Origin: Amylostereum areolatum
Taxonomy: Eukaryota; Basidiomycota; Agaricomycetes; Russulales; Stereaceae
DNA length: 64,000 bases
Direction of reading: 5' to 3'
NCBI GenBank assembly: GCA_012932865.1
Contig: SAXG01000083.1
Span: 62,001 to 126,000 of the forward strand
The position numbers were made by a program, and so were the translations under genes. Below the pieces are notes generated by a model. The model was not told the DNA's origin. It did not search any database and saw nothing but the letters and a program-made list of their open reading frames with translations. Of this stretch, positions 1,516 through 25,229 are shown one piece after another (position 1 is the first letter of the stretch; every line of letters starts with the position of its first letter).

Positions 1516-1966
1516 TGTTGAAGATATTCGTTTATGTCTGATTTCTACGCCTTTATTCTGTTCTATCTCCCTTCTATTCGCGTCTATTCCGCTCCATTCA
1601 CCCTATTATCATCTAATTCCGCGTCTATACCCTCACATGCCCTCTCCACTTCACCCACTGTTCGCTATTGTACTGTACTTACTGTAGTTCAGCCTGAGCT
1701 AGCTTCCCTAGCTTCAGTTTCGAGTTAGTTACCGCTTTAGGTCGATTCTCGGCTTATTCCGAGTTTCCTCCCACGCTCCATGGCCTCTACCTGCAGCCAC
1801 ACGCGTCTGCTCCTCCTCAGTCGCTCATTCTGTGCTGCAGGTATGCCCTTTGCTCGTTTCTGTCTTGTTTCTCAGTCGCTCATTCTGTGCTGCAGCAATC
1901 CACTGTTTGTGTCAGTTCTGAGCGTCCCTAGCTAGTTGGCTAGCCCCTTCAACTGCGACTTCAACA
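1516..1966 (+). repeat. 5' LTR of copia element
   Basis: This 451-bp LTR begins TGTTGAAG and ends CTTCAACA. A 25-bp direct repeat occurs inside it at 1816-1840 and 1871-1895, each ending in TGTGCTGCAG. The LTR should supply the promoter and RNA start; no TATA box is clear to me. Confidence 0.93.
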
Positions 1967-1985
1967 GGTTATGGGCCCTGCGCTC
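1967..1985 (+). other. Primer-binding site matching half tRNA-iMet
   Basis: GGTTATGGGCCCTGCGCTC starts at the first base after the LTR. Its reverse complement matches the anticodon-stem region of fungal initiator tRNA-Met, ending in the anticodon loop (GCAGGGCxCATAACC), rather than the tRNA 3' end. Drosophila copia is known to prime from such a 5' half of initiator tRNA. The match is about 17 of 19 positions against the yeast iMet sequence as I recall it. Confidence 0.75.
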
Positions 1986-2673
1986 TAGCCAACATCCATC
2001 GCTTTTATCTCGCCTCACAGCACCCCCCTCGCCTCGTCCTTCTACACACCTCTCCTACCATCCCTAGAGGCCCCAGCCCTCGAGTTTCAAGTCGAACGAC
2101 CCATCCGTCGCCTCCCAACGCCATCCCCATCCTCCAGGGCGCGCATTTCGCAACATCAAGCGCGCACGCAACGCCCCTTCATCCGTTCGCCTCGCCCTTG
2201 CATATTCCGCATCTACTACTCCCTATCCAACTTCGTGCCAAGCCCCAAGGCCGTCGCTTTTGTCGCTGCGCGTCCACAGCCTGTGACGCTTCCTCCTCCT
2301 CCTCCCACAAACATCAAAGGCGCCCTCAGCGCCCCTTCAACCGTTTGCTACCTCGCTTCGCGTCAGCCCTCCCTACCACCCTACCTACCCCCTCGCCAAA
2401 CGCGGTAGCCGTCGCTGAAGCCGTTCGCCCTCAGGAGCTCGTTGTTTGCAGGAGGCTGTTTCGAGAAATTTTCACCTTGGGATCGGACGAGTGTAGCTTC
2501 CCATCGCGTTGTGCTATCGGTACGCGCTCTTCAGGCCTCCATCTAGACCATCCACCCTCCCCATCGCCGTCGTACCCGCCCCCATCGCCCTATCCCATCG
2601 CCCTCGGCGCCCCCTCGAACCTCTGCTCGTCCAAATCGTCGCTTTTTGCGTATATCCTCTCCAATTCCTCATT

Positions 2674-5600
2674 ATGTCCGACTCTATCCCCAAAATCGAC
2701 GCTCTCACCGGCCAAAACTACAAGGACTGGTCGAACGAGGTTCTGGCCTGGCTCCAGACCAAGGGCTGGGACGCTGTAGTGCTGGGGGAGACGTCCAAGC
2801 CGGCGGATACTGCTGCTGCCGCCCTCAAGGAGTACACCTCGATCTGCTCCAAGGCTGGGGGTGCCATCTACCTCCTCATCTCCAAGGACCAGCGAGGTCC
2901 TGTGGACGACCTTAGGCGCGACGCCCCTGCTATGTGGACGAAGCTCGAGGCGCTGCACGTCAAGAAGGCGCCTGGCGCGCGCTTCAACGCGTATGACGAC
3001 CTCTTCAATGTCCGCAAGAAGGAGGACGAGTCCCTGCTCGCTATGGCGACGCGAGTCGACGATGCTATGCGTCGCATTCGTTCCCTTCGCCCTGCGTCTC
3101 TCACCCTCGAGGAGCTCGACAAGGAGCTCACCACCATGGCGTACATCCGCGCCCTCCCCTCGGAGTACTCCTCCTTCGTCTCCTCCCTCCTCCTGCTCGA
3201 GAAGCTCGACCCCGACAGCGTCAAGGACGCGTTTGTGCGCGAGGAGACCAACAGGGAGCGCAACCCCGAGTTCTTCAAGCCGGACGCTTCGTCTGCGCTC
3301 AGTGCGTCGTCGTCTGGCGCATCTGGCAAGGCCAAGGGGCAGTCCTCGCGTCCACGTCTCACTTGCGCGTTCTGCAAGAAGAGCGGGCACGAGGAGAAGA
3401 CCTGCTATCAGAAGCAGATCAAGGACCTGCGTTCTCGCCTTGGGGACAAGGCCAACGCCGCTTCGTCGTCGTCTGACGGCTTCAATCCTGCTGGCGAACA
3501 CGCTGGCAGCGCTGCATCCGCAAGTGTCGCTCCTTCCGACCCCCTCTCGCCGCTGCAGCTCGATGCTGACGTCGATTGGAATGCAGACACCGGCGCCACG
3601 TCTCATATGACCCCGCATCGCCACTTCTTCGCCTCCTACCGTCCCCTTCGCACGCCCATTCGCCTCGCAGACGGAAAGACGGTGTACAGTGCAGGAGTCG
3701 GTTCAGTGGTGTTCAATCCGGTTGTAGCAGGAAAGGCGCAGGGTGCCGTCGAGTTTACTAGAGTCCTCCATGTTCCCCATCTTCGCAATAATCTCCTCTC
3801 TGTCCTCTACCTTGCGAAGCATAAGGCGTTCGTCGTCACCATCAAGGGGAGCCGCGTCTCCTTCGCTAAGGACGGCGCTGTGTGGTTCACTGCAACGATC
3901 AACGATGCGAACACCGCCTATCTCGATGGTTCCACCTCTACAGCGTCGCACTACGCCCTATCCGCCGCGCTCGCCGCCTCTACGCCGCTCGACGCGTCCC
4001 TATGGCACCGCCGCCTGGCTCACTTCAACCACGCTGGTCTCCAGCGCATAGTGCGCGAGAATCTCGTCACCGGTCTCGTCTTCAACTCGTTAGAGAAGCC
4101 CGACCCTATCTGCGAGCCCTGCCTCGCTGGCAAGATGCATGCCGACCCGTTCCCCTCCTCTACCACCGTCTACACAAAGCGCCTCGCCCTCGTCCACTCT
4201 GACCTGCACGGTCCGCTTCCAGTCCGCACCGCCTCTGGCTATCGCTACTGGGTCCTCTACATCGACGCCGCCTCGCGTTTCTACGCCGTCTACCTGCTTC
4301 GCAAGAAGTCGGACCAGTACGAGGCGTTCAAGGACTTCAAAGCGTGGGCCGAGAAGCAGACAGGCGAGAAGCTGCTCGCGCTGCAGGACGACAAGGGGGG
4401 CGAGTACATGGGGCGCAACATGGACGAGTTCTGTTCGCTGCACGGGATCGAGCGCCGTCATACGACGCGCAATCGCCCTCAGCAGAACGGCGTGGCGGAG
4501 CGTGCAAATCGCACCATTGAGGAGGGTGTCACCGCGATGCTTGCGGAGTCCGGCCTGCCTGCGTCTTTCTGGGGAGAAGCGCTCAGTGCCTACATCCACG
4601 TCCGCAACCGCCTGCCCACCGCCGCCATCAAGGCGCACACCACGCCCTTCGAGCTCTGGCACGGGTCCAAGCCGGATGTGAGTCGTCTGCGCGTGTGGGG
4701 ATGCACCGCATACGTCCATATCCAGCGCGACAAGCGCAAGGGCCTGCAGCCGCACATGGTGAAGGCCGCCTTCATCGGGTATCCGGAGGGGTACAAAGGC
4801 TGGAAGTTCTGGGACCCTATAGCGAAGAAGGTCATCATTTGCGAGCGCGCCGACTTTGATGAGCGCGATTTCCCTCGCTCCAGGCTCAACAAGCCGCTCC
4901 TGCCCTCGCCTTCCGCTCCCCTCTTCCCTCCTCCGCCTCCATCGGAGCCTGCTCCCTCTCAGCCGGTGCTGGATGCCGGGGGAGACGACGACTCGTCCTC
5001 TGCTGAGCAAGACGAGCCTGTTCTGCCTCCAGCTCCGCCTGCTGATGAGCATGATCAGGATGCGGCCGATCCCGCTCCTGCGCCGCCTGCAGCCGATCCT
5101 GCACCTCCCTCTCCACATGCGGGTCCTTCGCGGCCTGCTCCTCGAGGGAGGAAGCGCGCCGCCTCGCCCACCGGTCCTCTGCGCCGTAGCACGCGCGACG
5201 CCGTGGTCAAGGCGCGATCGAACAGCTGGCAGCCTCAACCAGTGCCCTCCAAGGCGAAAGTGCGCGAGCCGCTTCCTGCAGTCGAATCCGACGAGGAGGA
5301 CGATGCTCACAGCGACTCTCCTGAGCCGTGGGCGAATGACGACGTCTACTCTGCGCAGGAGACGCCTGAGGCCGCCTTTGCCATCCACACCGCGTTGGAG
5401 ACTGCCCTTCTATCCGCAGACGGCGAGCCGCTCTCCTACAGGCAGGCTATGCAGCGTCCAGACGCGGAGATGTGGCTTGCAGCGTGCAGAGAGGAGCTCG
5501 ACGCGCATGCAGCCAATGGCACCTGGTCTATCGCTTCCCTTCCCCCTGGCGCGCACGCCGTCGCATCGCGCTGGGTCTTCAAGGTCAAGCGCAAGGAGGA

Positions 5601-6984
5601 CGGCTCCATCGAGCGCTACAAGGCGCGCGTCGTCGCGAAGGGCTTTGCCCAGCGTCCTGGCTTCGACTACTTCGAGACCTTCGCTCCCACTGCCAAGTTC
5701 CAGGCCATCCGCACTGTCCTCGCCCTCGCCGCCGTCGAGGATCTCCACCTGCGCTCCATCGACATCTCCCATGCCTTCATCAATGGCGACCTCGATGCGG
5801 AGGTCTACATGAAGCAGCCTGAAGGCTTCGAGGAGGGTCCTCCTGGCGCGGTCTGCAAGCTGCAGAAGTCGATCTACGGCCTCAAGCAGGCCGCTCGCCT
5901 GTGGAAGATCAAGCTGATGGAGGTCCTGTGCGACAAGATGGGATTCCGCTGCATCTACAGCGACGCGTCAATCTACGTGCTCCAGCGCGACGCTGTGCGC
6001 GTTCTCCTCCCTGTCTTCGTCGACGACGGCACCCTGGCGTCGAATTCGGAGCCTGTTCTCGACGAGATCATCGCCACTCTTCGCACGCACTTCAAGCTGC
6101 GAGACCTCGGCCCCACCTCCTTCCTCCTTGGCATCCACATCACTCGAGACCGCTCCCTTCGCACCCTCTTCCTCTCCCAGCGCCAGTACATCATCGACAC
6201 GCTTGCGCGCTACAATCACGCCGACTGCCACCCTGTCACCACGCCTATGCTTCCTGGCTCGCGTCTGACGAAGGCCATGTCGCCCCAGAACGCTTCTGAG
6301 CGCGAATTCATGCAAAAGGTGCCCTATGGCAGCGCCGTCGGCTCCCTGCTCTACATCGCGACTGCGACCCGTCCAGACATCGCCTACACTGTCTCCAATC
6401 TCTGCCGCTTCATTTCGGACCCAGGTCCTCAGCATTGGCGCGCCGTCCAGCATCTGTTCAAGTACCTCCAGGGCACGAAGGACTTGAAGCTCGTGTACAG
6501 GCCGACCGACGACTCCGAGCTGTTCACCACCTTCACAGACTCGGACCACGGCGGAAACGTCGACAATGGCCGCTCCACAGGCGGGTATCTCGTCCGCATT
6601 GGTTCTGGCGCTGTCAGCTGGAGCTCTCGCCTCCAATCGCTCGTCGCACAGTCGACGACCGAGGCGGAGTACATTGCTGCCGTCGAGGCTGGCAAGGAGA
6701 TCGTCTGGATGCGCAACCTGCTCTCTGAGTTTGGCTACACAGTCGAGGGCGCTTCGCTCCTGTACTCGGACAATCAGTCGTCTATCAATGTCTCAAAGAA
6801 TCCCGAGCATCATGGACGCATGAAGCACCTCGACCTGCGCTTCTACTGGCTGCGAGACGAAGTGGAGGCCGGCCGGATTGTTCTCAAGTTTGTGGGGACA
6901 AACGAGATGCCGGCCGACATCCTGACGAAGGCGCTGCCTCGTGAGCGCGTTGTGCGCTGCAGGGAGATGATGGGACTCGAGTAG
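2674..6984 (+). CDS. Copia Gag-Pol polyprotein
   Basis: A single open frame of 1436 aa, counted from the ATG at 2674. An in-frame ATG at 2509 would add 55 aa of low-complexity leader, so 2674 is preferred. Domains in order: a UBN2/copia-type Gag; zinc knuckle CAFCKKSGHEEKTC near residue 231; aspartic protease DTGATS at about 305; integrase with an HHCC-type finger (HRRLAH...CEPC) and catalytic D510, D573, E609 (35 residues between D and E); a Pro-rich linker; reverse transcriptase with IDISHAF and FVDD at about 1115-1118; and RNase H (TDSDHGG at about 1287) ending ADILTK. Order protease-integrase-RT-RNase H is diagnostic of Ty1/copia. The usual YVDD is FVDD here. No frameshift or internal stop is seen. 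The product makes virus-like particles, copies the RNA and inserts the cDNA. Confidence 0.95.
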   Translation: MSDSIPKIDALTGQNYKDWSNEVLAWLQTKGWDAVVLGETSKPADTAAAALKEYTSICSKAGGAIYLLISKDQRGPVDDLRRDAPAMWTKLEALHVKKAPGARFNAYDDLFNVRKKEDESLLAMATRVDDAMRRIRSLRPASLTLEELDKELTTMAYIRALPSEYSSFVSSLLLLEKLDPDSVKDAFVREETNRERNPEFFKPDASSALSASSSGASGKAKGQSSRPRLTCAFCKKSGHEEKTCYQKQIKDLRSRLGDKANAASSSSDGFNPAGEHAGSAASASVAPSDPLSPLQLDADVDWNADTGATSHMTPHRHFFASYRPLRTPIRLADGKTVYSAGVGSVVFNPVVAGKAQGAVEFTRVLHVPHLRNNLLSVLYLAKHKAFVVTIKGSRVSFAKDGAVWFTATINDANTAYLDGSTSTASHYALSAALAASTPLDASLWHRRLAHFNHAGLQRIVRENLVTGLVFNSLEKPDPICEPCLAGKMHADPFPSSTTVYTKRLALVHSDLHGPLPVRTASGYRYWVLYIDAASRFYAVYLLRKKSDQYEAFKDFKAWAEKQTGEKLLALQDDKGGEYMGRNMDEFCSLHGIERRHTTRNRPQQNGVAERANRTIEEGVTAMLAESGLPASFWGEALSAYIHVRNRLPTAAIKAHTTPFELWHGSKPDVSRLRVWGCTAYVHIQRDKRKGLQPHMVKAAFIGYPEGYKGWKFWDPIAKKVIICERADFDERDFPRSRLNKPLLPSPSAPLFPPPPPSEPAPSQPVLDAGGDDDSSSAEQDEPVLPPAPPADEHDQDAADPAPAPPAADPAPPSPHAGPSRPAPRGRKRAASPTGPLRRSTRDAVVKARSNSWQPQPVPSKAKVREPLPAVESDEEDDAHSDSPEPWANDDVYSAQETPEAAFAIHTALETALLSADGEPLSYRQAMQRPDAEMWLAACREELDAHAANGTWSIASLPPGAHAVASRWVFKVKRKEDGSIERYKARVVAKGFAQRPGFDYFETFAPTAKFQAIRTVLALAAVEDLHLRSIDISHAFINGDLDAEVYMKQPEGFEEGPPGAVCKLQKSIYGLKQAARLWKIKLMEVLCDKMGFRCIYSDASIYVLQRDAVRVLLPVFVDDGTLASNSEPVLDEIIATLRTHFKLRDLGPTSFLLGIHITRDRSLRTLFLSQRQYIIDTLARYNHADCHPVTTPMLPGSRLTKAMSPQNASEREFMQKVPYGSAVGSLLYIATATRPDIAYTVSNLCRFISDPGPQHWRAVQHLFKYLQGTKDLKLVYRPTDDSELFTTFTDSDHGGNVDNGRSTGGYLVRIGSGAVSWSSRLQSLVAQSTTEAEYIAAVEAGKEIVWMRNLLSEFGYTVEGASLLYSDNQSSINVSKNPEHHGRMKHLDLRFYWLRDEVEAGRIVLKFVGTNEMPADILTKALPRERVVRCREMMGLE

Positions 6985-6993
6985 GCGTCTCAT

Positions 6994-7003
6994 CACGGGG
7001 GAG
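6994..7003 (+). other. Polypurine tract of copia element
   Basis: CACGGGGGAG directly precedes the 3' LTR. It is the expected plus-strand primer. A closely related tract occurs in the miniature LTR element at about 8376-8384 (minus strand). Confidence 0.75.
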
Positions 7004-7454
7004 TGTTGAAGATATTCGTTTATGTCTGATTTCTACGCCTTTATTCTGTTCTATCTCCCTTCTATTCGCGTCTATTCCGCTCCATTCACCCTATTATCAT
7101 CTAATTCCGCGTCTATACCCTCACATGCCCTCTCCACTTCACCCACTGTTCGCTATTGTACTGTACTTACTGTAGTTCAGCCTGAGCTAGCTTCCCTAGC
7201 TTCAGTTTCGAGTTAGTTACCGCTTTAGGTCGATTCTCGGCTTATTCCGAGTTTCCTCCCACGCTCCATGGCCTCTACCTGCAGCCACACGCGTCTGCTC
7301 CTCCTCAGTCGCTCATTCTGTGCTGCAGGTATGCCCTTTGCTCGTTTCTGTCTTGTTTCTCAGTCGCTCATTCTGTGCTGCAGCAATCCACTGTTTGTGT
7401 CAGTTCTGAGCGTCCCTAGCTAGTTGGCTAGCCCCTTCAACTGCGACTTCAACA
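7004..7454 (+). repeat. 3' LTR of copia element
   Basis: Same length and sequence as the 5' LTR, including the internal 25-bp direct repeat. It is followed directly by the target duplication TTTGT. Confidence 0.93.
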
Positions 7455-7833: not shown

Positions 7834-8166
7834 GCCTGTTAGCTGTAAAAGTTATCATGGCAAACGTATAGATCATTGCGACAAAGTGGAAGGGGGGGAC
7901 CAGGCGAGAAAGTTCGATGGTGGAAGGGGGAGACGAGCCTCAGCCTGACGAGGCGAAAAAGTGCGATGGTGGAGGCGGAGTGCAATTGATTCCGAACGGA
8001 GGCTCGCGTTGATCACATGACTATTGCGCTTTACCCCTACAAGTGCCCCGACGGTCTGCTCATACCTGCTCATACTCGACAGCATTCTCTTTCCCCATCC
8101 TTCCCCCCCCCTCTTTTCTCCAGTCGAAGTTCGAAAACCTCGCGTGGGTCACTTCCGGCCATCGCT

Positions 8167-8375
8167 TGTTGAAAACACAGAGGGACCTTCAGTCATAAAG
8201 TGAAACACAAAGTGGACTGGCCGGGGATTGAACCCAGGACCTCCCATATTCTAGAAGGGTGCTCTAACCAACTGAGCTACCTGTCCAATAGTGGGAACAG
8301 GTTGGTAGTTGATATAGAGAATATCACCGAGCTCTGATTGTGTGCAACAGGCCAGGGCTTAGCCTTATTTCAACA
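8167..8375 (-). repeat. TRIM 3' LTR (sense = minus)
   Basis: A 209-bp LTR identical to the copy at 8461-8669. It contains a tRNA-like sequence at 8214-8286. Confidence 0.9.
8214..8286 (-). tRNA. tRNA-like pseudogene inside TRIM LTR
   Basis: Read on the minus strand, this 73-nt stretch folds as a tRNA. It has a 7-bp acceptor stem with one A-A mismatch, a perfect D stem GCTC/GAGC, a 5-bp anticodon stem with one T-T mismatch, a 5-nt variable loop and a 5-bp T stem with loop TTCAATC. The A box (TAGCTCAGTTGG) and B box (GGTTCAATCCC) are intact. The anticodon would read AGA, but the short variable arm does not fit tRNA-Ser, so it is probably not a working tRNA. Its likely role is as an internal RNA polymerase III promoter. 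Confidence 0.65.
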
Positions 8376-8460
8376 CACCCCCGTAAGACCAGGCCTGATG
8401 TGATCTTAGGCACTCGCCACTTGTGCCCAACAGTAATCATGAAGGCGGGTGCTGCTACCA

Positions 8461-8669
8461 TGTTGAAAACACAGAGGGACCTTCAGTCATAAAGTGAAAC
8501 ACAAAGTGGACTGGCCGGGGATTGAACCCAGGACCTCCCATATTCTAGAAGGGTGCTCTAACCAACTGAGCTACCTGTCCAATAGTGGGAACAGGTTGGT
8601 AGTTGATATAGAGAATATCACCGAGCTCTGATTGTGTGCAACAGGCCAGGGCTTAGCCTTATTTCAACA
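8461..8669 (-). repeat. TRIM 5' LTR (sense = minus)
   Basis: A 209-bp LTR identical to 8167-8375. Next to it on the minus strand is the putative primer site TGGTAGCAGC. Confidence 0.9.
8507..8580 (-). tRNA. tRNA-like pseudogene inside TRIM LTR (second copy)
   Basis: Identical to 8214-8286 plus the discriminator base. It carries the same A and B boxes. In this 5' LTR position a pol III start could produce RNA running into the core of the element. Confidence 0.65.
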
Positions 8670-8927
8670 TCGCTCTCTTGTGTCCTCCTCGCGGGCATGA
8701 TCGGGTTCCAGGTTTGTTATATCGAAAGGTGCCCTCGGTGCCCTCCTACCGGTGTGTACCGTTGTGCGGAAGGCATCAACTTCTACTGACCACTCTGTCG
8801 GAGGTAAAATATCAGGTGGTGGAGATTGGAAGTCGACCGTGTTATCGTTTACCCTTGGACCCTGCAAGTTGTGTGCTGGTCGTTCGCCGATCCGTATTAC
8901 CACGAATAACCCAATGATGGTGAGCAT
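8670..8927 (-). pseudogene. Possible coding frame interrupted by the TRIM
   Basis: A minus-strand frame opens with a hydrophobic stretch (LTIIGLFVVI) and continues as polar sequence to the TRIM border. If the TRIM and one TCGCT copy are removed, the frame stays open for about another 25 codons. The frame has no recognised domain or clear splice sites, so this may be chance. Confidence 0.2.
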
Positions 8928-9678: not shown

Positions 9679-10442
9679 ATGTCGAACCCCAACAAAGACT
9701 CCCAGCACTCTTCTGACCACTCGCGCGCCACAGGGAGCCGTCAAGAAGTACACCCTTCGCTCCTTCCAGGTTACAATGCCGTCTGACGACTCTCCCTTTG
9801 TTAGGCGAACTCGCGATCTGCCACTGGAGGCGACCACGAACAAGCATCATCCGGACCCAGTGTGTCTACTGAGCTTAACATGATCAATCCTCGTTCCCTG
9901 ACTAGCTTCCGTCTCCTCAGGCAGAGGCAATGGCTTTGGCGTGGTCTTTGAGGTAGGCCTCCTGAAGAAGAGTACGCGTGTACTGACTGCAAAGCCCAGA
10001 CGGCTGGCATGAGTCTCCCAGAGGCTTGGATGAAGATATTCTTCCTGGAGCGAGAGTTACGGCTATACCAAGGTGTGTTCTTCGTCGTCCCTTCAGGATG
10101 TATCATATTAACAAATATCCAGAAACCACCGCCCCCGCAGTTGCAGAGGTGCAACAGGCTAACCTCGAGCTACGTCGTGCAAACGACATATTCAGCAAGA
10201 CTCTTCAAAAGGTCATGGACCGCCGTCGTCATGATATTGAAGTTGCAGACCGGAATGGAGTAACCAAGCTCTTGTTCTGTTTGGTGGTGGGGTATGTGGT
10301 GAAGTTGTGGTTATCAGAGTGGGATGGTTCATTCGACGCCATCGTGCATGGCTTGGAACACCTCGGAGAGACTGTGCTTTACTGCTTGATACGTCTCGGA
10401 GAGGCTGTATATCGAGTACTTGCGTGGTGTGGCAGGTGGTAG
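9679..10442 (+). CDS. Unknown coiled-coil protein with C-terminal membrane segment
   Basis: Five exons can be joined in frame: 9679-9747, 9805-9859, 9921-9952, 10000-10072 and 10123-10442. The introns are 57, 61, 47 and 50 nt, all GT-AG with CTGAC/TTAAC-like branch sites, giving 182 aa. The N-terminus is Ser/Gln-rich and disordered. It is followed by MKIFFLERELRLYQ, a heptad-like region (about 80-120), a hydrophobic segment LLFCLVVGYVVKLWL and an amphipathic tail ending CGRW. No family is recognised; it may be a tail-anchored membrane protein. The last 48 nt (10395-10442) are also the outer end of the inverted duplication, so the other arm has only this fragment. Confidence 0.65.
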
Positions 10443-10614
10443 GGATACGCAATGCAATAGAATAGAATTGTTCAGTGGTACATGTTAAATGTGCTCCTCT
10501 TGTCACAGAAAGGCTATTCCCATGCAGACACCGTGGTGACGAACGATCCAATGGAGGAATGGAAACCCGCCGCTGTTGAACCCGGGAAAGCGTAAGCATG
10601 TGAGGATATCCTCT

Positions 10615-10908
10615 TCAGATCACCAGCACACAAGACTGTATATAAGGCGACGAAGCGCACAGCACGATACAACTAGAAGAAGGGGTCAGCTTTTTGGGCG
10701 TCGGCAACGGATTGACGGAGTGGAGAGCTGTCATGTTCAGCGACGATGGCGTGGTATTCGTAGTGAACGCGCCCGCACTGCATCCGCGGGGGAGGGGGTC
10801 TCCAAGAGAGGATTCCTGAGGCGGCTTTTGTTCAGCAATTCGCCTGCGTGCGGCGTAAATATGAGGAAATGATGAAAGACAGAGGACGCACCGTCGGTTC
10901 TGTCGCAC
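10615..10908 (-). CDS. Possible small exon of unknown gene (left arm)
   Basis: A minus-strand frame runs on from a possible acceptor (CACGCAG) into a Pro/Thr/Ser-rich stretch; an upstream frame contains a hydrophobic run (VFVITFFSLI). The counterpart lies at 63331-63624, where one residue differs (Arg to Cys). No domain is recognised and there is no firm start. Confidence 0.25.
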   Translation of the reverse strand: MRQNRRCVLCLSSFPHIYAARRRIAEQKPPQESSLGDPLPRGCSAGAFTTNTTPSSLNMTALHSVNPLPTPKKLTPSSSCIVLCASSPYIQSCVLVI

Positions 10909-11013
10909 AGCTCGCGGCGCAATGAGCGAAAAGAATGTGATTACGAAGACTCGTGGTGGGGAGGCAACTGTGTACGTGAAGGGGTAGATAGGACGGGTCT
11001 AGCTTGGTCGAAA

Positions 11014-11880
11014 TCAGTACACTACTGCGATCTTGAGAGCTTGTCGCACATCTGACCTTGTGTAACGTTCTGAGAGACCGTGAAAGTGTGCTGAAGGTTC
11101 CAAGTTGATAGTATAAGTCGACGTCGCATTAGAATGTTTGTGAACACACGCATCAGGTAGTTCCATAGCCTTCCGATGACGACAATGGCGTTCCCAGATG
11201 AGTTCTGCCCAAACCACTCGGTGACGGACTCGCACTCGTATAGAAACGTGAGCCGGAGCGCATGCCGAAGCCGGTCGGTGGTTGTAGGGCGGATACCTGG
11301 ACGAAGCGCGGTGTCAGCGATCGTATCGGTGAGGGAGTCCAAGGACAAATGGGTGGGGACGATGAACAAGAGAACGGACACACCTCGTTTGCGTTTTCAT
11401 TTTCTCTCCCGTTCCGGTTGTCCCTCGCCGATGGGATGGAGTCGTAGGTTCGTTGTGGTCAGAGACGAGATGTGCACAGATGCGGATTGGGATAGTCAGC
11501 AAAGCACACAGTTTGGCAAGACAAGGCACGTAAGGGCACGTACTGTCCAGAACACGGTAATATCAGGTAAAACCCAAGTCTGGTTCCTAGGCAAGGCGAA
11601 TGCCAATGGCGTGGATCACAGCGCGTTCTGCGTTGGTCATGCAACACGGTTAGGGTACGGTAGCTGTGGGTTGAGAGATGATAGAGCGGGCGGAAACGCC
11701 ATTTACAAGGTGTGCAACAGATGGGTCAATGGCAGTCTTGGCCTTGGGAGTCAGATCTTCAGACGCACCGGTACCCTCGTGGTTTGAAAGGTGCGAGTGA
11801 GAGAAAAGAGGAGGCCAAATCGCGTGCTTACTTTCCATCACACGCCGGTGACACCCATCTCGAAATTTCCGAAGCTGCAT
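11014..11880 (-). CDS. Unknown multi-exon gene (left arm)
   Basis: The best supported part is the 3' end. The frame ...TDRLRHALRLTFLYECESV runs to LWNYLM, is joined across a GTGTGT...TTCAG intron (about 58 nt), and then reads HFHGLSERYTRSDVRQALKI to a stop at 11014. A preceding intron with a GCTGAC branch ends just before GIRPTTTD. The 5' exons lie toward 11880 but are not resolved. No domain is recognised. An almost identical copy lies at 62359-63225. Confidence 0.4.
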
Positions 11881-12065
11881 GCTTGCACTCGCCCACAGAT
11901 ACAGTAGTCAGAATTATTCAAATGACATTGTCGATATCGTCTACGGCCTGGTAAATACATGATCTCATACACCCGAAACAGCGCACTGGAACAGATTCTC
12001 TGTAGCACACTGTCAACTTGGGGCACGTAGAAGGATAGACAGCACACGTACCTCGTTTGCTGGCC

Positions 12066-13620
12066 TCAAGCCGTGGCATGCTTGTCTCTGGACCTGTACG
12101 TCGCGATCATCTTCTTCGTGACCCAACTCGGCACGCCGTTGGACAGGAGGTGGAATCGATACTGTGTAAAACGCGGGTGAGGTCCTCCGGCCTCGATAGG
12201 CGACCAGCCACCGGCGGCGGCTCGAACCCAGGTTTGCGGTCGAGAGTCTCTCCTGTGCTTGTACAGGAATACATCGCCCACACGAGCCGAGAAGGAAGGG
12301 GCAGAAGTGAGCGGGTCGATGCCGGTTGCCTCGAACCAGGTAAAGCTCTCTTTCAGGTTCTTGATTTTCCCGGGAAACTTGCGGATGTTCAGCGAAGGTT
12401 CTTCATCATTTGACCCAAGAGACAAGTCTGCAACACGATCGGGGACATCGAAAGTGAGCGTGACGGTTGTGGCCTCGGCGGGAGCGGCTTCAAGGGGAGT
12501 GGCTTCAATAGAGGCGGGCTCGGCGGGAGCGGGCTGGGCGGGAGCGGGCTGGGCGGGAGCGGGTTGGGCGGGAGCGGGAGCGGGCTGGACGGGAGCGGGC
12601 TGCGCTGGAGTAGCTTCAAGGGGAGCGGCTTCAAGGGGAGCGGCTTCAAGGGGAGCGGCTTCAAGGGGAGCGGCTTCAAGGGGAGCGGCTTCAGGGGGAG
12701 CGGCTTCAAGGAGAGTGGCTTTGGAGGGAGTAGATGCGGAATCAAGCGCATTGGTGAGCCTGCTGGAGGTAGATGGAGGGGACGAAGGAGGGGACGAAAG
12801 GGGGGAGATTTCTGGTAGGGTGAAGGCTGATGCGCGTTCGTTGGGAGAGGAGGAAGGAGCGTAGGAGGTGGTTGTGTAGTTTGGCACGACCGGGACGGAA
12901 CCTCGCCTGAGGCGTTTGCTTACAGGGGACACTTGCTCCTGAGATACGACGGTGAACTTGAGACGGCATTTGAGTCCGGAACGGGAAGAAGGAGAATGAG
13001 AGGAAGTAGGAGACATCAAATCCAAATGCGATGGGGGAGACCGTGGACTGCAAGATGTTTTGATCGCGGAGCCATCCGACGAGGACAAAGCCGTCCACGA
13101 TGAATCGACGCGCTCTGAAGGCGAAGTGGGTGCTTGTGGTCCTTGTCGGCAGTCATCCTCGTGGGGCGTTGCAAGAGGGAGGAGAAGGCGCGTGGAGGTC
13201 GAAGACAATCGGGTCGTGGTGTTTCTATGATTGAGCAAGAGTTCGTCAACCTGAGAAGACAGTGATACGGCGAGAAAACACACTTCGAGAGTCCATCGTG
13301 TCCTTGGCCGAGGGATGATGATATACGTTGCCGAGCGAGTATGCGCAAGCCGGATATCGGCGCCTGGGGTGACATTAGAGAAGGAGAGCGTGTCAAATTA
13401 TGCTGCAGGATGATGGTAAGAAAGGGGGAGCATCTAGATGTATGGAAGGGTACGGGTTGCTTACATGCGATATAGTAGAGCACGTACAGCCCGGTACGAC
13501 GCAAGTCCCAGTATGGACCCGTGGCGGGGAAGGGCTGCAGGCCGGGAAAAGATGTTTGTAGAACGGGATGAAGCGAGATGGTTTGGAGGCGTCCAAGGGC
13601 GGCGAACGGTCGCGTGGCAT
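12066..13620 (-). CDS. 476-aa protein with LEAAP/QPAPA repeats (left arm)
   Basis: Exon 1 (13620-13488) starts MPRDRSPPLD and joins across a 124-nt GTACGT...CCCAG intron (13364-13487) to exon 2 (13363-12066). Features in order: a Cys-containing N-terminus; a hydrophobic patch (CFLAVSLSS); a long Ser/Pro-rich region with the basic patch SKRLRRGSV; an Ala-Pro-Glu/Gln tandem repeat at about residues 275-350; and a conserved-looking C-terminal domain of about 110 residues (FPGKIKNLKE, VGDVFLYKHRR, PRFTQYRFHL). No family is recognised. The repeat makes the protein likely to vary in length between strains. The same gene lies on the plus strand at 60619-62173. Confidence 0.55.
12480..12725 (-). repeat. 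Coding minisatellite of 15-bp units
   Basis: On the plus strand, about seven near-perfect units of GGGGAGCGGCTTCAA are followed toward lower coordinates by units of GGAGCGGGCTGGGCG. On the coding strand these encode LEAAP and QPAPA. Unit length is a multiple of three, so gains and losses keep the frame. Confidence 0.8.
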
Positions 13621-14069
13621 TTGAGGGATGTGGATGAGGTTGGTGGAATCAGGTTGATGATCTATATGGTCGTGACGCTGGCCCTTTAAATATAAGTGAA
13701 GGAGAAACCCGTGTCGGGAACTACTGACTTACAGCACAACCGAATGAGTCGAAGCGGCATTGTCCACATGTCAAAGAGCGCGCAGATGAAAGGCGTTTGC
13801 CAAAGCTCTGAGCACGAGTATGGCGTCCATTCAGAAAGGTGAAAGGTCCACTCGGAAACAACGCTGGAGAGAGAATCCGGTCGACTGTGAGTAGAGCGGA
13901 TATTACGAGTCGAATTGAAGTGGGAGTGGAAAAGTGCCAGTGACCATCCGATCGGAGATTCGGAAGTACCAACCGCTTGAACGCAGCCGTGACCTTCACC
14001 GCAGTGTCACGTGACATAGCCTCGACGCGCCGCATTGCACGCGTGTCTGAGTCGTCCTATCCACAGTCC

Positions 14070-16040
14070 ATGCCGTTGTCGCATCGCACGCAATCCCATA
14101 CCCCCACTAGTAACCTCCTCTCTCGACATTATCAGAGCCCTTCCGCGCCCGGACTGACTGTGGTTTGTATCGACGCAGCGTCATGGTCCTCAACTGCACA
14201 CAAAGTCAAACGTCGTCTCGACCGAGTGCCCTCTGCTCCTCGTGTTCTTCGTGTAATCTGCCCCGTAAGCGTCCCTTTCATCTAATATAACTGTGATATC
14301 TCACCTCAACTGTGATCTTACGCAGGCCACGGTCCCCGTCGATAACATAATCAACCTCTGCTGCCTCGAGGGTCAACGCGTCATCTACCCGCCACTCGGT
14401 AGTCGCCGTCCTTTGTTGCACGGCTCAAGGGACTTGTGGATAAAAAGATGTACGTCCTTCTCTCTTCTCCCCCAACCACCTTCCTTTGCGGATCTTGCGC
14501 ATAAACAACGTGTCCTGCTATGCTTACCCAAACTTTCAAAGCGAAGAAAAGTTCGACCAAGGTGCGCGCAGAGAGCTCTGGCACCGTCAAATGACGCTAA
14601 CAGCTGTCCAGAACACCACAAAGGCGCGTCGGTCGCCATCCGTTGCACGGTCCATCAGCGGCGCCGGCTTTCGCAAGACCCCTAAGACTGTAGGTGGAAT
14701 GTTACTTCCCTGGAGCGCGAGAGCTTACGACCCTCGTAGTCCAACCGCAAGACCTTCCGGGAGGCCAATCCCGTGAAGTCGAATACATGCAACAAGCCCC
14801 GAGCGACGTCGTCTTCGGGCCCATGTGTTCGTGTTTAAACTTCGTCCTTTGTCACGGCATGCTGATACTGACTTACAGGGCTCGCTGAGCATGAAGACGC
14901 GTAGCGCCGTCAAGGCCCAGGCGATAGAGGTGCGTGGTTTGACTTGTTAACGGACGATAAACTGACCGACGACCGCAGGAGGCTGGTCGTATCTTGGTCA
15001 AGGTACGTGAGCTCCGTGTTTACAGGCAACGCCTCTTCCTGACTCTCTTGCTTAGAGCATCGTCACGCTGTCGTCGTCTCGGCAGATCGACAATTTTGTT
15101 TTGCACAGCGGGTACAACGAGGCCCTCGCCACGGCAGTCGAAACCCTGATCATTCAAACCCCGTCCTGCACACTGGCGTCCATCCGTGCTATTCTCGAAC
15201 GTACACCGTCCGTCGAGGAGCTGGTCCTGGATCTCCCGACCAAGTCGCATTCTTTCTTGGCTCTTCCCAATCCGTTCTCTCGTTTGGTCGCATTTTCCAC
15301 CACTTTACCCCACGCAACACTCTTTCCGTTCCTACAGATGCACAACAAGCTGGAGGCGTTGACCATAGGTCCATGCGGCGGGTCGGCGACATGCCCTCTG
15401 GCAGGCGTATCGCTCACCTCTCTCTCTGAGCTGTCCTGCCCTCCCAAATGTATTACGGCCATCTCGCCGGTCACCCGCATCAGGAACTTGACCGCCATTG
15501 TTCACGATCGACGCGACGCAGAATTTGACCTCTCCTTGTTGCTCAATTTCACACCCATTCCGACATTGTCGACACTGACCATCCTTCACATCAACTTCAA
15601 ACCCTCGGACGTCTGGGTCATGGCTCGCATCGCCGCGGCGGCACCTCAACTCATCCACCTCAAATTGGTGGAAACCCCCTTCTGCAAAAAGGTGAGTTCG
15701 TATCAGGAGTGTGCTCGGCAGCATGCTGATTTCTGACTCAAGGACACCGAGGGACTTTTCTATCCTCCCACCTGGAGACTCCATGGTTGGGTATCGGGTC
15801 TCACAGCACTCGACCGTCTGCGTTGCCTCGTCTTGAAAATATCAACCTCGCTATCGTCCCTGGGCGAATCCGATGATCTCATCATCAAAAGCTAGGTGCA
15901 GGACGTGCAAGTTTTGAACCGTCTCGAGGTTTGGTCGAGTACGCAAGGAGGGCTCGGTTTTTTGCAGCGCTGGATTCGCGTGGCAGACGGGACGGTCTGG
16001 AAGAAAGAGCACGATGATGTGGTTGAGGCGACTGAGACGG
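14070..16040 (+). pseudogene. F-box/LRR-like gene, disrupted copy (left arm)
   Basis: Multi-exon plus-strand gene. The main exon (about 15056-15691) encodes leucine-rich sequence (SVEELVLDLPTKS, LSTLTILHINFKPSD, PQLIHLKLVETPF) like the LRR-type F-box relatives common in basidiomycetes; no F-box itself is evident. A 24-nt micro-exon (EAGRILVK) lies at about 14979-15002. In this copy TGG has become TAG at 15893-15895, and the gypsy element is inserted at 16040 in the codons just before the stop. The right-arm copy (58182-60169) has neither lesion, so this copy is probably a pseudogene. The start at 14070 is a guess. Confidence 0.6.
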
Positions 16041-16577
16041 TGTTAAGGACGGTCCTTATCACGTGACAAGCGGCTCAGGCTACAGTACTCTTATGCGTGA
16101 GAGGTGGGATCAGGTGATCCAGACGTCTCGGTTTATACGAAGGTAAAGGTCAATAAGCGAAGCAGTAAGTCTTCACGGAAGACTTAGGCGAGCTTATTAA
16201 CTTAGTTTGGATTCTCTTTAGTATGCTTAAGAGGAGGTTCTTATTAGAACAGTCCTGTATTTACAAAGAGAACGAGCTGAGGAATGGCTCGTTCGATGAG
16301 CCTCCTTTTATAAGAAAGGAGGTCGAGTAAATATATGTACATTGAGCGACGGTCGCATCAAGTATCTACGGGAATAAGACTGTGGCACCGTCGTGGCTAT
16401 GCCGTTGAGACGGTGACGATCTGTGGCACTGTCGTCGGGATGGTGACGATCTGTGGCACTGTCGTCGTCGCGTCGTTGAGACGGTTACGAACTGGGGCAT
16501 AGTCGTAATCCGTCGTTTAGCGACGTCCTTCCTAGTAATGGCAATGGAAAATGAAGTACCTTGGACAAGTTGTAACA
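16041..16577 (-). repeat. gypsy 3' LTR (sense = minus)
   Basis: 537 bp. On the minus strand it begins TGTTACAAC and ends CCTTAACA. It contains internal near-repeats of GATCTGTGGCACTGTCGTCG at about 16427-16470. Confidence 0.93.
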
Positions 16578-16810
16578 CTATCCCCCTCTCTAGAATCTAC
16601 GTCTCGTAGATTCCTGAATCGAAGCGGTTCTAGAGGGATGTCTTGAACATGCTGTCGATCGCTCGCTCTTCGCCATTGGAGAAGGAATATTGTTGATGCG
16701 ATGAAGGTGAGGATCGTAAGTCCTACGATGATGCTGATGACGGCGATGAGCCAGCGTGGAGTGGGCGTATTGAAAATCGCGAGATCGGGTGATTGGGTTG
16801 ATTGCATCAT
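16532..16810 (-). CDS. 92-aa single-pass membrane ORF of gypsy element
   Basis: MMQSTQSPDL is followed by a strong hydrophobic segment (WLIAVISIIVGLTILTF, about residues 20-46) and a basic, polar tail (QWRRASDRQHV). The last 15 codons lie inside the 3' LTR and the frame also covers the purine tract. The position between pol and the 3' LTR is that of an env gene, but the protein is far too small for a class I envelope. There is no signal peptidase or furin site that I can defend. It could be part of a spliced product with the upstream accessory frames. Confidence 0.4.
   Translation of the reverse strand: MMQSTQSPDLAIFNTPTPRWLIAVISIIVGLTILTFIASTIFLLQWRRASDRQHVQDIPLEPLRFRNLRDVDSREGDSVTTCPRYFIFHCHY
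16578..16591 (-). other. Polypurine tract of gypsy element
   Basis: On the minus strand AGAGAGGGGGATAG directly precedes the 3' LTR (TGTTACAAC). This is the expected plus-strand primer. Confidence 0.75.
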
Positions 16811-16883
16811 GCTTCTGGGTTTGTCACTTTCTGATGTTCACTCTTTTATGTCTTTGCCCGGACCTCAGCGATAGAATTCTATT

Positions 16884-17267
16884 CTATCGCTTTAACAACG
16901 CCTCTACTACTTTCAGGTCCTCCTCGTCTATCGTAGTAGCCCCTAACCGATGTCCTATCCTCGCCGTCGTCGCGTGATCCGGGCTCTTGAACCGAGGCCC
17001 GCATTTTCGGAAGAGTCCCTTGATGCCGCATCTTCCCTTCGACTCCTGCATGGCTTCTTCGTCTAGGCTTCTCGGCCTCTTCATGGCGCGAGCGACGTCC
17101 GGACGGCTTAGGAGTTCCGTGACTCGTTTGAGATGACGAAGGAGTTCTTCGTCTAGTGGGTCGGGTGTGGGAGTGCGCGAGAGGACGGGCGAAGGAGGAG
17201 GAGTGGTAGGAGGGGTGCAGTCGGTGGTGGAGAGGTTGCGCGAAGAGGGGGCGAGAGTAGACGACAT
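16884..17267 (-). CDS. 127-aa accessory ORF of gypsy element
   Basis: Starts MSSTLAPSSR. It has a Thr/Pro-rich N-terminus, a helical acidic-basic stretch (DEELLRHLKRVTELLSRPD), a Cys-containing middle (GRCGIKGLFRKCG) and the C-terminus DEEDLKVVEALLKR. Composition and the ordered charge pattern suggest real coding. No family is recognised. Confidence 0.4.
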   Translation of the reverse strand: MSSTLAPSSRNLSTTDCTPPTTPPPSPVLSRTPTPDPLDEELLRHLKRVTELLSRPDVARAMKRPRSLDEEAMQESKGRCGIKGLFRKCGPRFKSPDHATTARIGHRLGATTIDEEDLKVVEALLKR

Positions 17268-17385
17268 ATTTGGTTGGTTTGGGTGGTGCGAGTGGATTTG
17301 TTAGACGATGTCTGAGCATGTTATCGTCTTTGTGGCTTTCCTTTTATGCTTGCGATGTGGAGGGGCAATGATGTAATCATTGCCG

Positions 17386-17628
17386 TTAATCGTAAGTGAA
17401 AATTCGTACATAATCAGACATGAGTCGTAAGTAAGCGATGCGTCCAGCGCGTCGCGGGGAGACTATCAAGCGTTCGCCTTCCTCATAGCGATAGAAACTG
17501 GTATAGTAGAGAAGTCCGAGGAGAATATGCGTACGAACGAGGGTGCAGTCCGTGATCAGTCCAAGAAGTGTCGTAAGCGATAGATGCGAGGGCGTAATGA
17601 TGGGGGAAGAGGGAAAGTCCGAGTGCAT
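17386..17628 (-). CDS. 80-aa hydrophobic ORF of gypsy element
   Basis: MHSDFPSSPI is followed by a Leu/Thr-rich hydrophobic stretch (LTTLLGLITDCTLVRTHILL) and a basic tail. It may be a separate small protein or an exon, because a donor-like GTAAGC lies upstream at about 17655-17660. Weak evidence. Confidence 0.25.
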   Translation of the reverse strand: MHSDFPSSPIITPSHLSLTTLLGLITDCTLVRTHILLGLLYYTSFYRYEEGERLIVSPRRAGRIAYLRLMSDYVRIFTYD

Positions 17629-17655
17629 GATGATGGGTAAAGTCTGTCTGCGCGC

Positions 17656-17931
17656 TTACCAGGGCTCCGGCCAGTGAACCTTCGACTCCTCCGCTTCCTG
17701 CAAGTCCCAATCTTCCTTTTTCCAGAAGAGATCGTCGACGCGCCAGGAGTGATTGAAGCGCGAGGGGGTTTCTTGCTGAGTGCGGAGCATGGCGTCCTCC
17801 CAGTACAACCACTGTTCAGTGGCGTGCTGGGCGGCTTCGTGCGTCAGGCTCTCGCGTCGCGTGAGGAATCCCAGGAGCTGTCGGTGGGCGCGGGGCGGTA
17901 GCGTCGGTACGTCGGAGGCGGGGGTGGGACA
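17656..17931 (-). pseudogene. Acidic Trp-rich C-terminal frame of the accessory protein
   Basis: A third reading frame carries RRESLTHEAAQHATEQWLYW, then WRVDDLFWKKEDWDLQEAEE and WPEPW before a TAA. Its composition is clearly protein-like, while the overlapping end of the 17816-19688 frame is low-complexity. This suggests the true accessory protein changes frame here, through old indels or unresolved splicing. Confidence 0.4.
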
Positions 17932-19688
17932 TCAGTGTTCCTGGACCGTAACTGATATCCGGACGGTCCGGGCGAGGGTGAGGGGGAAGAGTCTGTGGTC
18001 GAAGGGGATGGTAGGACCGAGATTGGGGGAAGTGAGGGGGAGCGTTCTTGCGACGGGGGCAGTCTCGGCGGAGATGGCCTCGCTTGCCGCATTTCCAGCA
18101 GCGTTTCCGCGGCTTCGAGGGAATCGCGTCCCACTCTTCCTGCGTCCACGTGGTCGGCTCGTTGCTCCATGGGTCCGAGGGATTCTCGGCTGCTTCCTTA
18201 GTCTCGTCGTCCTTCTCCGATCTGTCCGTCGAGCTGTCCGATTCGTCCGCTGAACTGTCCGACTCGTCCGTTAGGTTGAGTTCCTGTCTCCTGCGAGCGC
18301 GCTCCTCCATCATCCGATCGACTATCCTCTTGAGTTCTCTGAAGTTCTTCCTCACCCGATGTATCGGGGAGTCTGAACTCTCTGATCCGCTTGACTGGTC
18401 TTCCGTTGGGCTCGGTAGAATCATGTTTACGTCGCTGTGCGGTGACTCGGGGATCCTGGGCGACGGGATTTCGAGCGTAGTCGGGGTGCGGACGTGGGAA
18501 TGAGGGATAAGGGGCGTGGTTTCCGTGCCAAGGCATGGGAGTGTCGCTAGCAGATAGTGGGAATGGAGTTGGCGTTCTATGCACGGCGGGCAGCTGAGGA
18601 GGTGTCCTAGGTACCGGTCGCGGACTGCTGGCCGGTCGTCCGGTTGATTGTCCGGGCTCTGGAAGGACCAGGGACTGTCCCGATAGCTCTCTTGGCAGGG
18701 GCTGTCTGAACTGCTCTCCGGGTAATCCGTTTCTAACGATGGGAGGCTGGACGGGGTTAAGCTGGGTGATGTCGGGGATGGGTAAGGATCCTGGTGGCGT
18801 AGGGGCGGTGACGGGTCGTGGAGGGGCGTTAGGAAGGAACGGGGGTCTGGTGAGGGCGGATGCGATGGGATCGGGTCGAACAGTGTAGCCCGGGGAGATG
18901 TGATGTCCATGGAAGATAAGGTCGATGTCGGGGCCTTCCTTTGAAGACATATGGGGAACTCCAGTAGTTTCCATTCGTCTTCGGAGGATTTCTCCTTCGT
19001 AGGCGGCGCGGAAGGTGTGTCTTTCCCAGTTAAGCCAGTTAACTCTGAGTCCGACTTCAGTGAGGAACCTTCGGAGTTCTGCGACGTTGAGTATAGCCGC
19101 TGCGCTAGCTTCCTGAATCGTCGAAGGAGCTTGACCTCTCGTTCCTCCATTTCGGTCGAGAGCGTCAGGTACCTCAAGTCCAGCTGGTGGAGTTCTTCGT
19201 CGAGCATCTTGTTGTGGTCTTCCAGGATGCCCTGGACGTCGGCCGACTCCCTCCTGAGGTCGTCGATCCGCTGCCTGGCCTGTTCGATCGCTACTCCGGC
19301 TATCATGTGGGCTATCTGGTTCTCTAGGATCGGGGAATCGGGCGTTGGGACTTCCGTAGCTCCGGGCCACGGGGATTGCATTAGCACCTGTGAGGAATCC
19401 GGGTGCTTCAGTTAGGGTTCTTCTGTGTGCTTCTAAGCGGCTTACCCCTTGCTCTTCCGTCTGTTCTTCCGTCTGGTCCTGACCTAGACGGAGAAGGTAC
19501 TGACTTAATTGCAAGGATTGCTGCCGATCGAGCGATGAAGCAGTCTCCGCAGAGGGCGCGTTCCTGTTGAGAGTGGTGAACTCGGTTGCAGACGAGGCGG
19601 AGGTGGTCTTTCGTAAGCTTCGCCGTATTGTTCTGTTTCTTTGAATGGAATCAACAATGCTGCGTGGAATACTGGATGTATTTTCCAC
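17816..19688 (-). CDS. Accessory zinc-knuckle/coiled-coil protein 3' of gypsy pol
   Basis: Exon 1 (19688-19446, 81 codons) starts MENTSSIPRS within the end of pol in another frame. A clean 58-nt intron (19388-19445, GTAAGC...CTAAC...TCACAG) joins it in phase to exon 2 (19387-17816, 523 codons). Exon 2 has a coiled coil (IEQARQRIDDLRRES, EMEEREVKLLRRFRKL), a Pro/Ser-rich middle, an acidic stretch and a CX2CX4HX4C zinc knuckle (CWKCGKRGHLRRDC). It thus resembles a second Gag-like nucleic-acid-binding protein in the env position. A second long open frame overlaps it at 18198-19387 and also looks coding in its middle, so the real product may combine frames. The function is unknown. Confidence 0.5.
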
Positions 19689-22600: not shown

Positions 22601-23158
22601 TCCTTGGACGATCATTGTTCTGCTGGTAGTGACGCACGTACCTGGACATGTCTGTAGTGTAATCTGTCTCTTTCTCCAATCAATATGAGGATTGTGTTTC
22701 TTGAGCCAAGGGGTTCCTAAGATTACTTCGTCTCCTCCCAGGGCTGTGACGAACAATCCTAAGTTTTCGCGGTGAATTTCTCCGTTGGTTCCTTCCATCG
22801 TCATTGGAAGGTACACTTTCTGTTTGATCTCTCCTAGAGTGTTCCTAGATCCATCAACGTTGTATATCGGTATTGGCTTCTTTAATTGGATCAGATTCAT
22901 CTTGTGTTTTCGTACGAAATCTGGATGGATCAGGGTGCTGCTTGCTCCGCTATCTAGCAGTGCCTTTGCGGCGGCTTTACGGAACTTTCCATGAAACGTA
23001 ACAGGTATATGAATTGATGGAGCGTGCGTTGCTCCATCTTGGTATGACCTTATATACACTGTTCTATTTACGTCATCTCTTGTGTCCTGCACAGGAGATC
23101 GATTTGAAAAGTTCATTGTCTGTGTCCTTTCAACAGCCGCGGTTGAAGGACGATTCAA
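19505..23158 (-). CDS. gypsy Pol polyprotein
   Basis: A 1217-codon frame in -1 relative to gag; there is no ATG near the start and it opens at the frameshift site. Domains in order: aspartic protease ALLDSGASSTL (about residue 69); reverse transcriptase (LDLRWGYNNV, FGLTNSPATF, YMDD at about 466-469); RNase H (ESDASDFAYGAIL); integrase with H-H-C-C finger (HPGEMKTLELV...CPVC); core D...D...E (TSDFITDLP, ISDRGPQFASK, ETERVNQELEQYL); and a GPY/F-like tail (RFGPFKIEKVIGPVTYRLEL). Integrase after RNase H marks Ty3/gypsy. No chromodomain follows; the C-terminus ends in a short basic tail. No internal stop or frameshift is seen. Confidence 0.93.
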   Translation of the reverse strand: MNRPSTAAVERTQTMNFSNRSPVQDTRDDVNRTVYIRSYQDGATHAPSIHIPVTFHGKFRKAAAKALLDSGASSTLIHPDFVRKHKMNLIQLKKPIPIYNVDGSRNTLGEIKQKVYLPMTMEGTNGEIHRENLGLFVTALGGDEVILGTPWLKKHNPHIDWRKRQITLQTCPGTCVTTSRTMIVQGKDEHSLQSFEEQKINHHATVEEQEDPESNSDLADIRIVRTFHGKTDVETMPIAKEANEPGIWITARATKAQELAERAAIGEKKKTLDEMIPSSYKQYQKVFEKKASERFPISRPWDHAIDLTEGWKPRNCKVYPMTIPERKELDTFIDEHLRKGYIRESKSEISSPFFFIKKKDGSLRPVQDYRYLNSITVKNEYPIPLISDLIDKLKGAKIFSKLDLRWGYNNVRIKEGDQWKAAFKTNRGLFEPMVMFFGLTNSPATFQAMMNALFKELIDTGKVVVYMDDILIFTETLDEHRRLMKEALQLLERNDLFLKPEKCFFEQPSIEYLGVIITHNKVQMDPVKVQGLAEWPTPRKVKEVQSFLGFGNFYRHFIKDYSKIARPLFQLTKKDHEWNWTAECERTFERLKQEFTSSPILIMPDENKPFRIESDASDFAYGAILSQPDEIERWHPVAYLSKSLSPAEQNYEIYDKELLGVVKALEHWRHYLEGANHKVEIWTDHKNLEYFTTAQKLNRRQARWSLYLSRFDYTLVHKPGSTNKADGLSRRPDHKEDIPDNDDRILLHPSVFRARATGRGTVEAVGDKELLKELRNFSHLDDEVWTALDTIKRSGPRTLAKGIEDWNFENDLIIRKGKIYVPQNLELRRMILKSHHDLETIGHPGEMKTLELVQRNFWWPKMISFVKDYVQGCPVCQSTKNVTHPAKHPLQPTEIPERPWETITSDFITDLPISNGFDSINVVVDRFTKTAVFTPCLKTINAEETADLLIDNVYRRFGLWKRMISDRGPQFASKVFQSICESLGVISSLSTAYHPQTDGETERVNQELEQYLRAFCNGDQTNWAKLLPKAEFAHNIRQHSATKASPFELLHGYQPVFNPAIPTDPRIPTAEERIKNFKDAWDNAEASLEIAAKLMKMQHDQTFTLRDQLKQGDQVWLDGKNLNTVYPKTKLAPKRFGPFKIEKVIGPVTYRLELPTKWKIHPVFHAALLIPFKETEQYGEAYERPPPPRLQPSSPLSTGTRPLRRLLHRSIGSNPCN
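23124..23151 (-). other. Stem-loop downstream of gag-pol shift site
   Basis: On the minus strand GTCCTTCAAC pairs with GTTGAAAGGAC (one bulged A) around a 7-nt loop. It begins 6 nt after the slippery heptamer, the spacing expected of a -1 frameshift stimulator. Confidence 0.7.
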
Positions 23159-23164
23159 AAACCC
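23155..23164 (-). other. -1 ribosomal frameshift site GGGTTTT plus gag stop
   Basis: In the gag frame the sequence reads CAG GGT TTT TGA. The heptamer G GGT TTT fits X XXY YYZ. Slipping back one base gives TTG AAT CGT, the first codons of the pol frame. The gag stop TGA is at 23155-23157. Confidence 0.75.
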
Positions 23165-25128: not shown

Positions 25129-25229
25129 AATCTGATGGTCTTTTTTCAGCGGGTTGTTCCGCTGACTCCGTGGTGGGTGTTTCGTTTGACGCTCTGCGCC
25201 AAACTGTAGGGTGAGCTAGTGTAGAGGAG

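Follow-up and report, generated by a model that had tools for sequence, protein, structure and literature searches.

Pol III promoters within the LTRs of a TRIM are known from Cassandra, a plant element whose LTRs carry 5S rRNA promoters and which, according to PMC10886601, is the sole validated pol III TRIM lineage. The closest described system is Helenus (TRIMp3), defined by Kojima (2024; PMC10886601) and detected, by name, in Amylostereum areolatum. In the passages of that paper cited here, Helenus is a TRIM with a tRNA-derived sequence containing A and B boxes in both LTRs, with a primer-binding site (PBS) and a polypurine tract (PPT); in fungi it is flanked by 5-bp target site duplications (TSDs), its dependence on Copia elements has been inferred, and its LTRs give rise to tRNA calls such as Ser-AGA, with disagreement over isotype and inflated tRNA gene counts. 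The same passages report that the 3'-iMet type of primer arose more than once among fungal Helenus and that the PBS of fungal Copia elements corresponds to the anticodon region of the initiator tRNA; they name no partner element for Amylostereum, and the string 'centromer' is absent from the paper's main text. Among the papers listed by our literature searches, it was the only one seen to describe Helenus.

The window, by which is meant the whole stretch of 64,000 nucleotides of A. areolatum DNA that was analysed, contains a TRIM of this type (Table 1). The element consists of two LTRs and a core, measures 503 bp (less than 1 kb) and is without coding capacity. The first bases of its core, TGGTAGCAGC, begin with TGG, lie in the correct position for a PBS and appear to resemble the 3' end of an initiator tRNA; at the other end of the core, ACGGGGGTG immediately precedes the TGTTGAA of the 3' LTR. 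Genome searches for a host tRNA ending in GCTGCTA gave one match (one in the control) with one pattern, 12 (20 in controls) with another, and none with two further patterns, and so demonstrated no such gene. The LTR pair, 85-bp core, PBS-like site, purine tract and TCGCT duplication that had been described on a sequence-only reading of the window are all present. The observation of a TRIM with a tRNA-like sequence in each LTR is real, and it is far beyond chance because the full-length element occupies at least 42 places in its own genome.

Table 1. Positions in the 64,000-nucleotide window of the TRIM and of the neighbouring Copia-A element.
Feature	Position	Strand	Remarks
Whole TRIM, Helenus type	8167..8669	-	503 bp
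5' LTR	8461..8669	-	209 bp, TGTTGAA...TTCAACA; 100% identity with 3' LTR; orientation by PBS and PPT
3' LTR	8167..8375	-	209 bp
Core, non-coding	8376..8460	-	85 bp; starts TGGTAGCAGC, ends ACGGGGGTG
PBS-like TGGTAGCAGC	8451..8460	-	directly 3' of 5' LTR
Polypurine tract GGGGGTG	8376..8382	-	directly 5' of 3' LTR
Left target site duplication TCGCT	8162..8166	.	
Right target site duplication TCGCT	8670..8674	.	
tRNA-like sequence, 5' LTR	8507..8580	-	Rfam tRNA; ARAGORN 8506-8580
tRNA-like sequence, 3' LTR	8213..8286	-	Rfam tRNA; ARAGORN 8212-8286
A box TAGCTCAGTTGG, 5' LTR copy	8562..8573	-	pattern match
B box GGTTCAATCCC, 5' LTR copy	8518..8528	-	pattern match
TTTT, 5' LTR	8466..8469	-	weak terminator-like; sole four-T run of LTR
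TTTT, 3' LTR	8172..8175	-	possible pol III end point
Copia-A, candidate mobilising element	1516..7454	+	LTR pair, TSD, ORF
Copia-A LTRs	1516-1966, 7004-7454	+	451 bp each, identical
Copia-A ORF	2509-6984	+	1491 aa; gag, integrase and RVT_2 domain matches
Copia-A PBS-like GGTTATGGGCCC	1967..1978	+	differs from TGGTAGCAGC of the TRIM
Copia-A polypurine tract CACGGGGGAG	6994..7003	+	similar to ACGGGGGTG of the TRIM

The tRNA-like sequence occupies positions 90-163 of each LTR, and is therefore 74 nt long rather than the 73 nt first given. The fold itself stood up to the proposed check with a tRNA covariance model: the Rfam tRNA model matches both LTRs at 56.1 bits, against a gathering cut-off of 29, and ARAGORN reports a minus-strand tRNA in each LTR, with anticodon AGA, which it names tRNA-Ser(AGA). 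The description of the fold as lying in sense holds for both LTRs relative to the element, and fails relative to the window, the element being on the minus strand. The A and B boxes, said to be intact, are so by pattern match, TAGCTCAGTTGG and GGTTCAATCCC fitting the consensus patterns. In tRNA-derived sequence, PBS-like site, PPT, tRNA calls and TSDs, there is no categorical difference between this element and Helenus as it appears in the cited passages of PMC10886601. A tRNA version in a fungus had been put forward as a new parallel to Cassandra, which likewise has a pol III promoter within the LTRs of a TRIM, though from 5S rRNA instead of tRNA and in plants; this novelty fails, because Helenus has already been described in fungi, A. 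areolatum included (PMC10886601, in the passages cited). A TRIM with a tRNA-derived LTR promoter is an already known kind, and the present family has probably been catalogued.

The genome to which the window belongs measures 57.13 Mb in 182 contigs and encodes an ATP synthase subunit that shows 99% identity to that of Amylostereum chailletii. It contains at least 42 full-length, 503-base places at 100% (rounded) identity, window copy included, a lower bound, since scoring took in 40 of the 105 candidates from the first look. The junction between LTR and PBS occurs 54 times, on 19 contigs (at most two mismatches of 19; control 0). Matches to the 28-nt 3' half of the tRNA-like sequence number 165 (at most three mismatches; control 0), and locations were listed for 100 of them. 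As 54 junctions correspond to 108 LTRs, some 57 further LTRs or fragments are left over, presumably including solo LTRs. The genome search that the sequence-only reading called for has thus uncovered a family. That reading had held that a repeat found only here, or one whose tRNA-like part differed between LTRs, would mean chance capture; neither was found, and chance capture in a single copy is rejected by the full-length places, the copies inspected closely and the tRNA 3' halves alike.

Closer inspection covered the best-scoring 30 of the 54 junctions, a set biased toward young copies. Among these, 27 are flanked by 5-bp TSDs, as in fungal Helenus, and all 30 have LTRs that differ from each other at no position, so that the recent movement proposed for the window copy is borne out. 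The 30 copies fall into two types, 25 against five, distinguished by a single site, element position 89 (T or C), the window copy belonging to the rarer; the variant is always present in both LTRs of a copy, which fits the prediction of LTR replication. Both boxes are intact in all 30, the differences falling outside them. A few copies that share flanks (the pairs L026/L028, L027/L029 and L008/L014, together with 11.3-kb repeats on contig C1) look like products of segmental duplication. Substitutions at positions 48 and 56, common to diverged LTRs with the same tRNA-like part, appear to point to an older subfamily of the TRIM that already carried it. When the genome was searched for an allele of this site that lacks the window copy, only the two flanks of that copy itself came up.

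At a distance of 0.7 kb from the window TRIM lies an intact-looking Copia element, here termed Copia-A, with TTTGT as its TSD and an integrase core match that falls under the curated cut-off. The two elements have in common seven bases at each LTR end (TGTTGAA/TTCAACA), an ACGGGGG purine tract and TSDs of 5 bp; beyond the ends and the PPT there are only short, chance-like matches between them. The PBS of Copia-A, GGTTATGGGCCC, presumably resembles the anticodon region of the initiator tRNA. The LTR/PBS junction of Copia-A occurs 57 times in the genome (at most one mismatch of 22), and a further 28 junctions, at exactly three mismatches of 22, are provisionally taken as other Copia families. 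When distances were measured to these 57 junctions and to five RVT_2 matches assigned to Copia-A (contigs C1, C85 and C117), 50 of the 54 TRIM junctions proved to lie within 50 kb of a Copia-A, a zone that makes up at most 4.6% of the genome, and 43 within 10 kb; of the junctions outside the 50-kb zone, C72 has two, and C76 and C165 have one each. Five of the 54 are near any of the 28 less similar Copia junctions. In the other direction, 42 of the 57 Copia-A junctions are within 50 kb of a TRIM. Copia-A is present on 18 of the 19 TRIM contigs (contig-level hypergeometric p ~2e-19, for copies that are non-independent through nesting and duplication), and on most of these there is one cluster, mostly of less than 65 kb, with distant members on C2, C76 and C148.

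Several loci within these searches have their own interpretation. At L035, L036 and L037, TRIM LTRs are broken by or joined to Copia-A sequence, and Copia-A copies have therefore landed in TRIMs. Ten extra junction matches that had been candidates for autonomous partners are further TRIM copies, some of them likewise broken by Copia-A sequence, and L071, a candidate second Copia family, has neither an LTR pair nor a PBS of the kind sought within 7.4 kb. Copia reverse transcriptase matches are evenly spaced on C1 (11.3 kb, at 1627942-1651333) and on C41, C85 and C148 (about 3.7-4.3 kb), suggesting tandem duplication or an assembly artefact. Contigs C77, C85, C87, C140, C150 and C151, some of them nuclear-sized, contain AT-rich stretches (GC 0.22-0.27) with repeated organelle-like sets of tRNAs (L043-L045, L048, L049 and L059-L070); this is mitochondrial DNA, inserted or misjoined. 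The window itself also contains a 5.6-kb inverted repeat (10395-16040 and 58199-63844, 99.8% identity, about 42 kb apart), each arm of which has the same 405-aa frame, without a Pfam match in the one frame tested. Adjoining one arm is a Gypsy-type element (16041-25778, minus strand) with LTRs of about 537 bp that show two differences, start with TGTTACAA and end with CTTAACA. At 28147-31203 there are two neighbouring minus-strand frames, of which one, of 531 aa, matches Transposase_21 (tnp2) of a DNA transposon.

The explanation that we favour, with a probability of roughly 85%, is that the element is a Helenus-type TRIM, probably transcribed by pol III from the boxes of its 5' LTR and probably mobilised in trans by Copia machinery, with Copia-A as the likeliest source. 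In this scheme TFIIIC and TFIIIB would occupy the A and B boxes of that LTR, and pol III, whose use is inferred, would start close to the tRNA-like part, pass the single TTTT at LTR positions 201-204 into the core and finish at or beyond the corresponding TTTT of the 3' LTR. The predicted RNA would measure about 415 nt and include a repeated R (about 120 nt) and a 5-nt U5. A Copia, most likely the neighbouring Copia-A, would provide in trans the machinery to package this RNA and reverse-transcribe it by way of the PBS and PPT, and its integrase would then insert the resulting DNA, creating 5-bp duplications, for the most part within the clusters of Copia-A. Read-through of a single TTTT is plausible in that it may be leaky, because tRNA loci of the host mostly have longer T runs: in a set of 12 nuclear tRNA loci that includes duplicates, the first run of at least four T after the gene has six to eight T in nine cases and four T in three, and in those three further T runs follow. 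An LTR without T5 runs is not unusual in itself, 72% of shuffled LTRs also having none. Against the favoured explanation stand the TTTT of the 5' LTR, at which pol III could terminate before it reaches the core, the different PBSs of the TRIM and of Copia-A with their chance-like similarity beyond ends and PPT, the searches that showed no host tRNA gene ending in GCTGCTA, and the spread of variant events over the LTR described below.

The name given by ARAGORN and the 56.1-bit match to the tRNA model are what genuine tRNA-Ser(AGA) genes, lying in a repeat by chance, would have to recommend them. However, the tRNA-like body, though bearing a Ser anticodon, is of class I with 74 nt, whereas the host's own tRNA-Ser(AGA) is of class II with 81-82 nt; one pair in the acceptor stem and one in the anticodon stem are non-standard; and in a comparison with four host tRNAs, tRNA-Ile(AAT) came nearest, with 55 identical positions. 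Having neither the class II body nor the fully paired stems of a functional tRNA-Ser gene, the sequence is rejected as a working tRNA gene, and this reading, refuted in its simple form, deserves next to no credence. Alternatively, the tRNA-like part might be a passive remnant of an old tRNA or SINE insertion in a TRIM transcribed by pol II from U3. This we regard as unlikely, in view of the boxes intact in all 30 inspected copies, the presence of the tRNA-like part in older LTRs also, and the retention of both boxes in the Helenus families treated in the cited passages of PMC10886601; yet a TATA-like TATAT is found 30 bp upstream of the tRNA-like part, the TTTT ahead of the core could halt pol III, and the tRNA-like part is not conserved to excess among variant LTRs. 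Counted as distinct variant events, 10 fall in its 74 positions and 18 in the remaining 135 positions of the LTR (p = 1.0); since events are not rarer there than elsewhere, they give no sign of constraint. A base-by-base count that seemed favourable in three of four diverged LTRs was rejected, an 18-bp deletion having been counted per base in it.

With respect to the partner, it is conceivable, if doubtful, that some other LTR element with a TGGTAGC-type primer site mobilises the TRIM, and that Copia-A merely occupies the same heterochromatic sink. Such an element would account for the mismatch between the two primer sites, and from a rust, a Copia whose PBS is of the 3'-iMet type has been reported (PMC10886601, in the passages cited); moreover, the partner search covered families that match the RVT_2 profile and, of the Gypsy elements, the one in the window. 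Within that scope no Copia with the PBS of the TRIM was found: a pattern combining LTR end and PBS gave 19 non-TRIM matches against 63 in the control, and none of the 19 is less than 28 kb from any of the 130 RVT_2 matches. The LTR ends and PPT, too, are those of Copia-A, and the Gypsy element in the window differs in its LTR ends (TGTTACAA...CTTAACA) and has no TGGTAGC after its 5' LTR. To judge from the shared ends and the co-clustering, Copia-A would be the likeliest mobiliser of the TRIM. This pairing and co-clustering, together with the primer-site mismatch, may be new relative to the passages of PMC10886601 considered here.

The clusters raise a further possibility. GlCEN427, a Copia element of the Agaricomycete Ganoderma leucocontextum, is confined to predicted centromeres according to the cited part of PMC10817607, and the same might be true of Copia-A; the terms 'non-autonomous' and 'TRIM element' are absent from the main text of that paper. 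Because of this precedent in another Agaricomycete, it is a fair guess that the TRIM/Copia-A clusters are putative centromeres. AT-richness as a sign of this was not seen, the GC content being 0.538 at L001-L040 versus 0.548 at 12 nuclear tRNA loci. It would go considerably further, and we think it improbable, to suppose that the TRIM is a pol III element restricted to centromeres, with the Copia-A integrase seeding TFIIIC/pol III sites (165 B-box regions) that contribute to shaping the chromatin of centromeres or boundaries. If that were true, well over 100 TFIIIC/pol III binding sites in total would have been placed in the retrotransposon clusters of the individual chromosomes.

What the locus offers is a young Helenus family documented by TSDs, copy number and LTR identity, accompanied in its genome by a candidate partner that looks intact. 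It poses the question of whether, and how, a TRIM can rely on a partner whose primer site differs from its own, and that of the centromere targeting of both TRIM and Copia-A. There is also a consequence for annotation. The published A. areolatum assembly (57.57 Mb in Table 1 of PMC7227769, 53.48 Mb in its text; 248 scaffolds) is given there as having 457 predicted tRNA genes, to be set against the 165 tRNA-like matches found here, and tRNA gene predictions for genomes of this sort may in large part be transposon LTRs.
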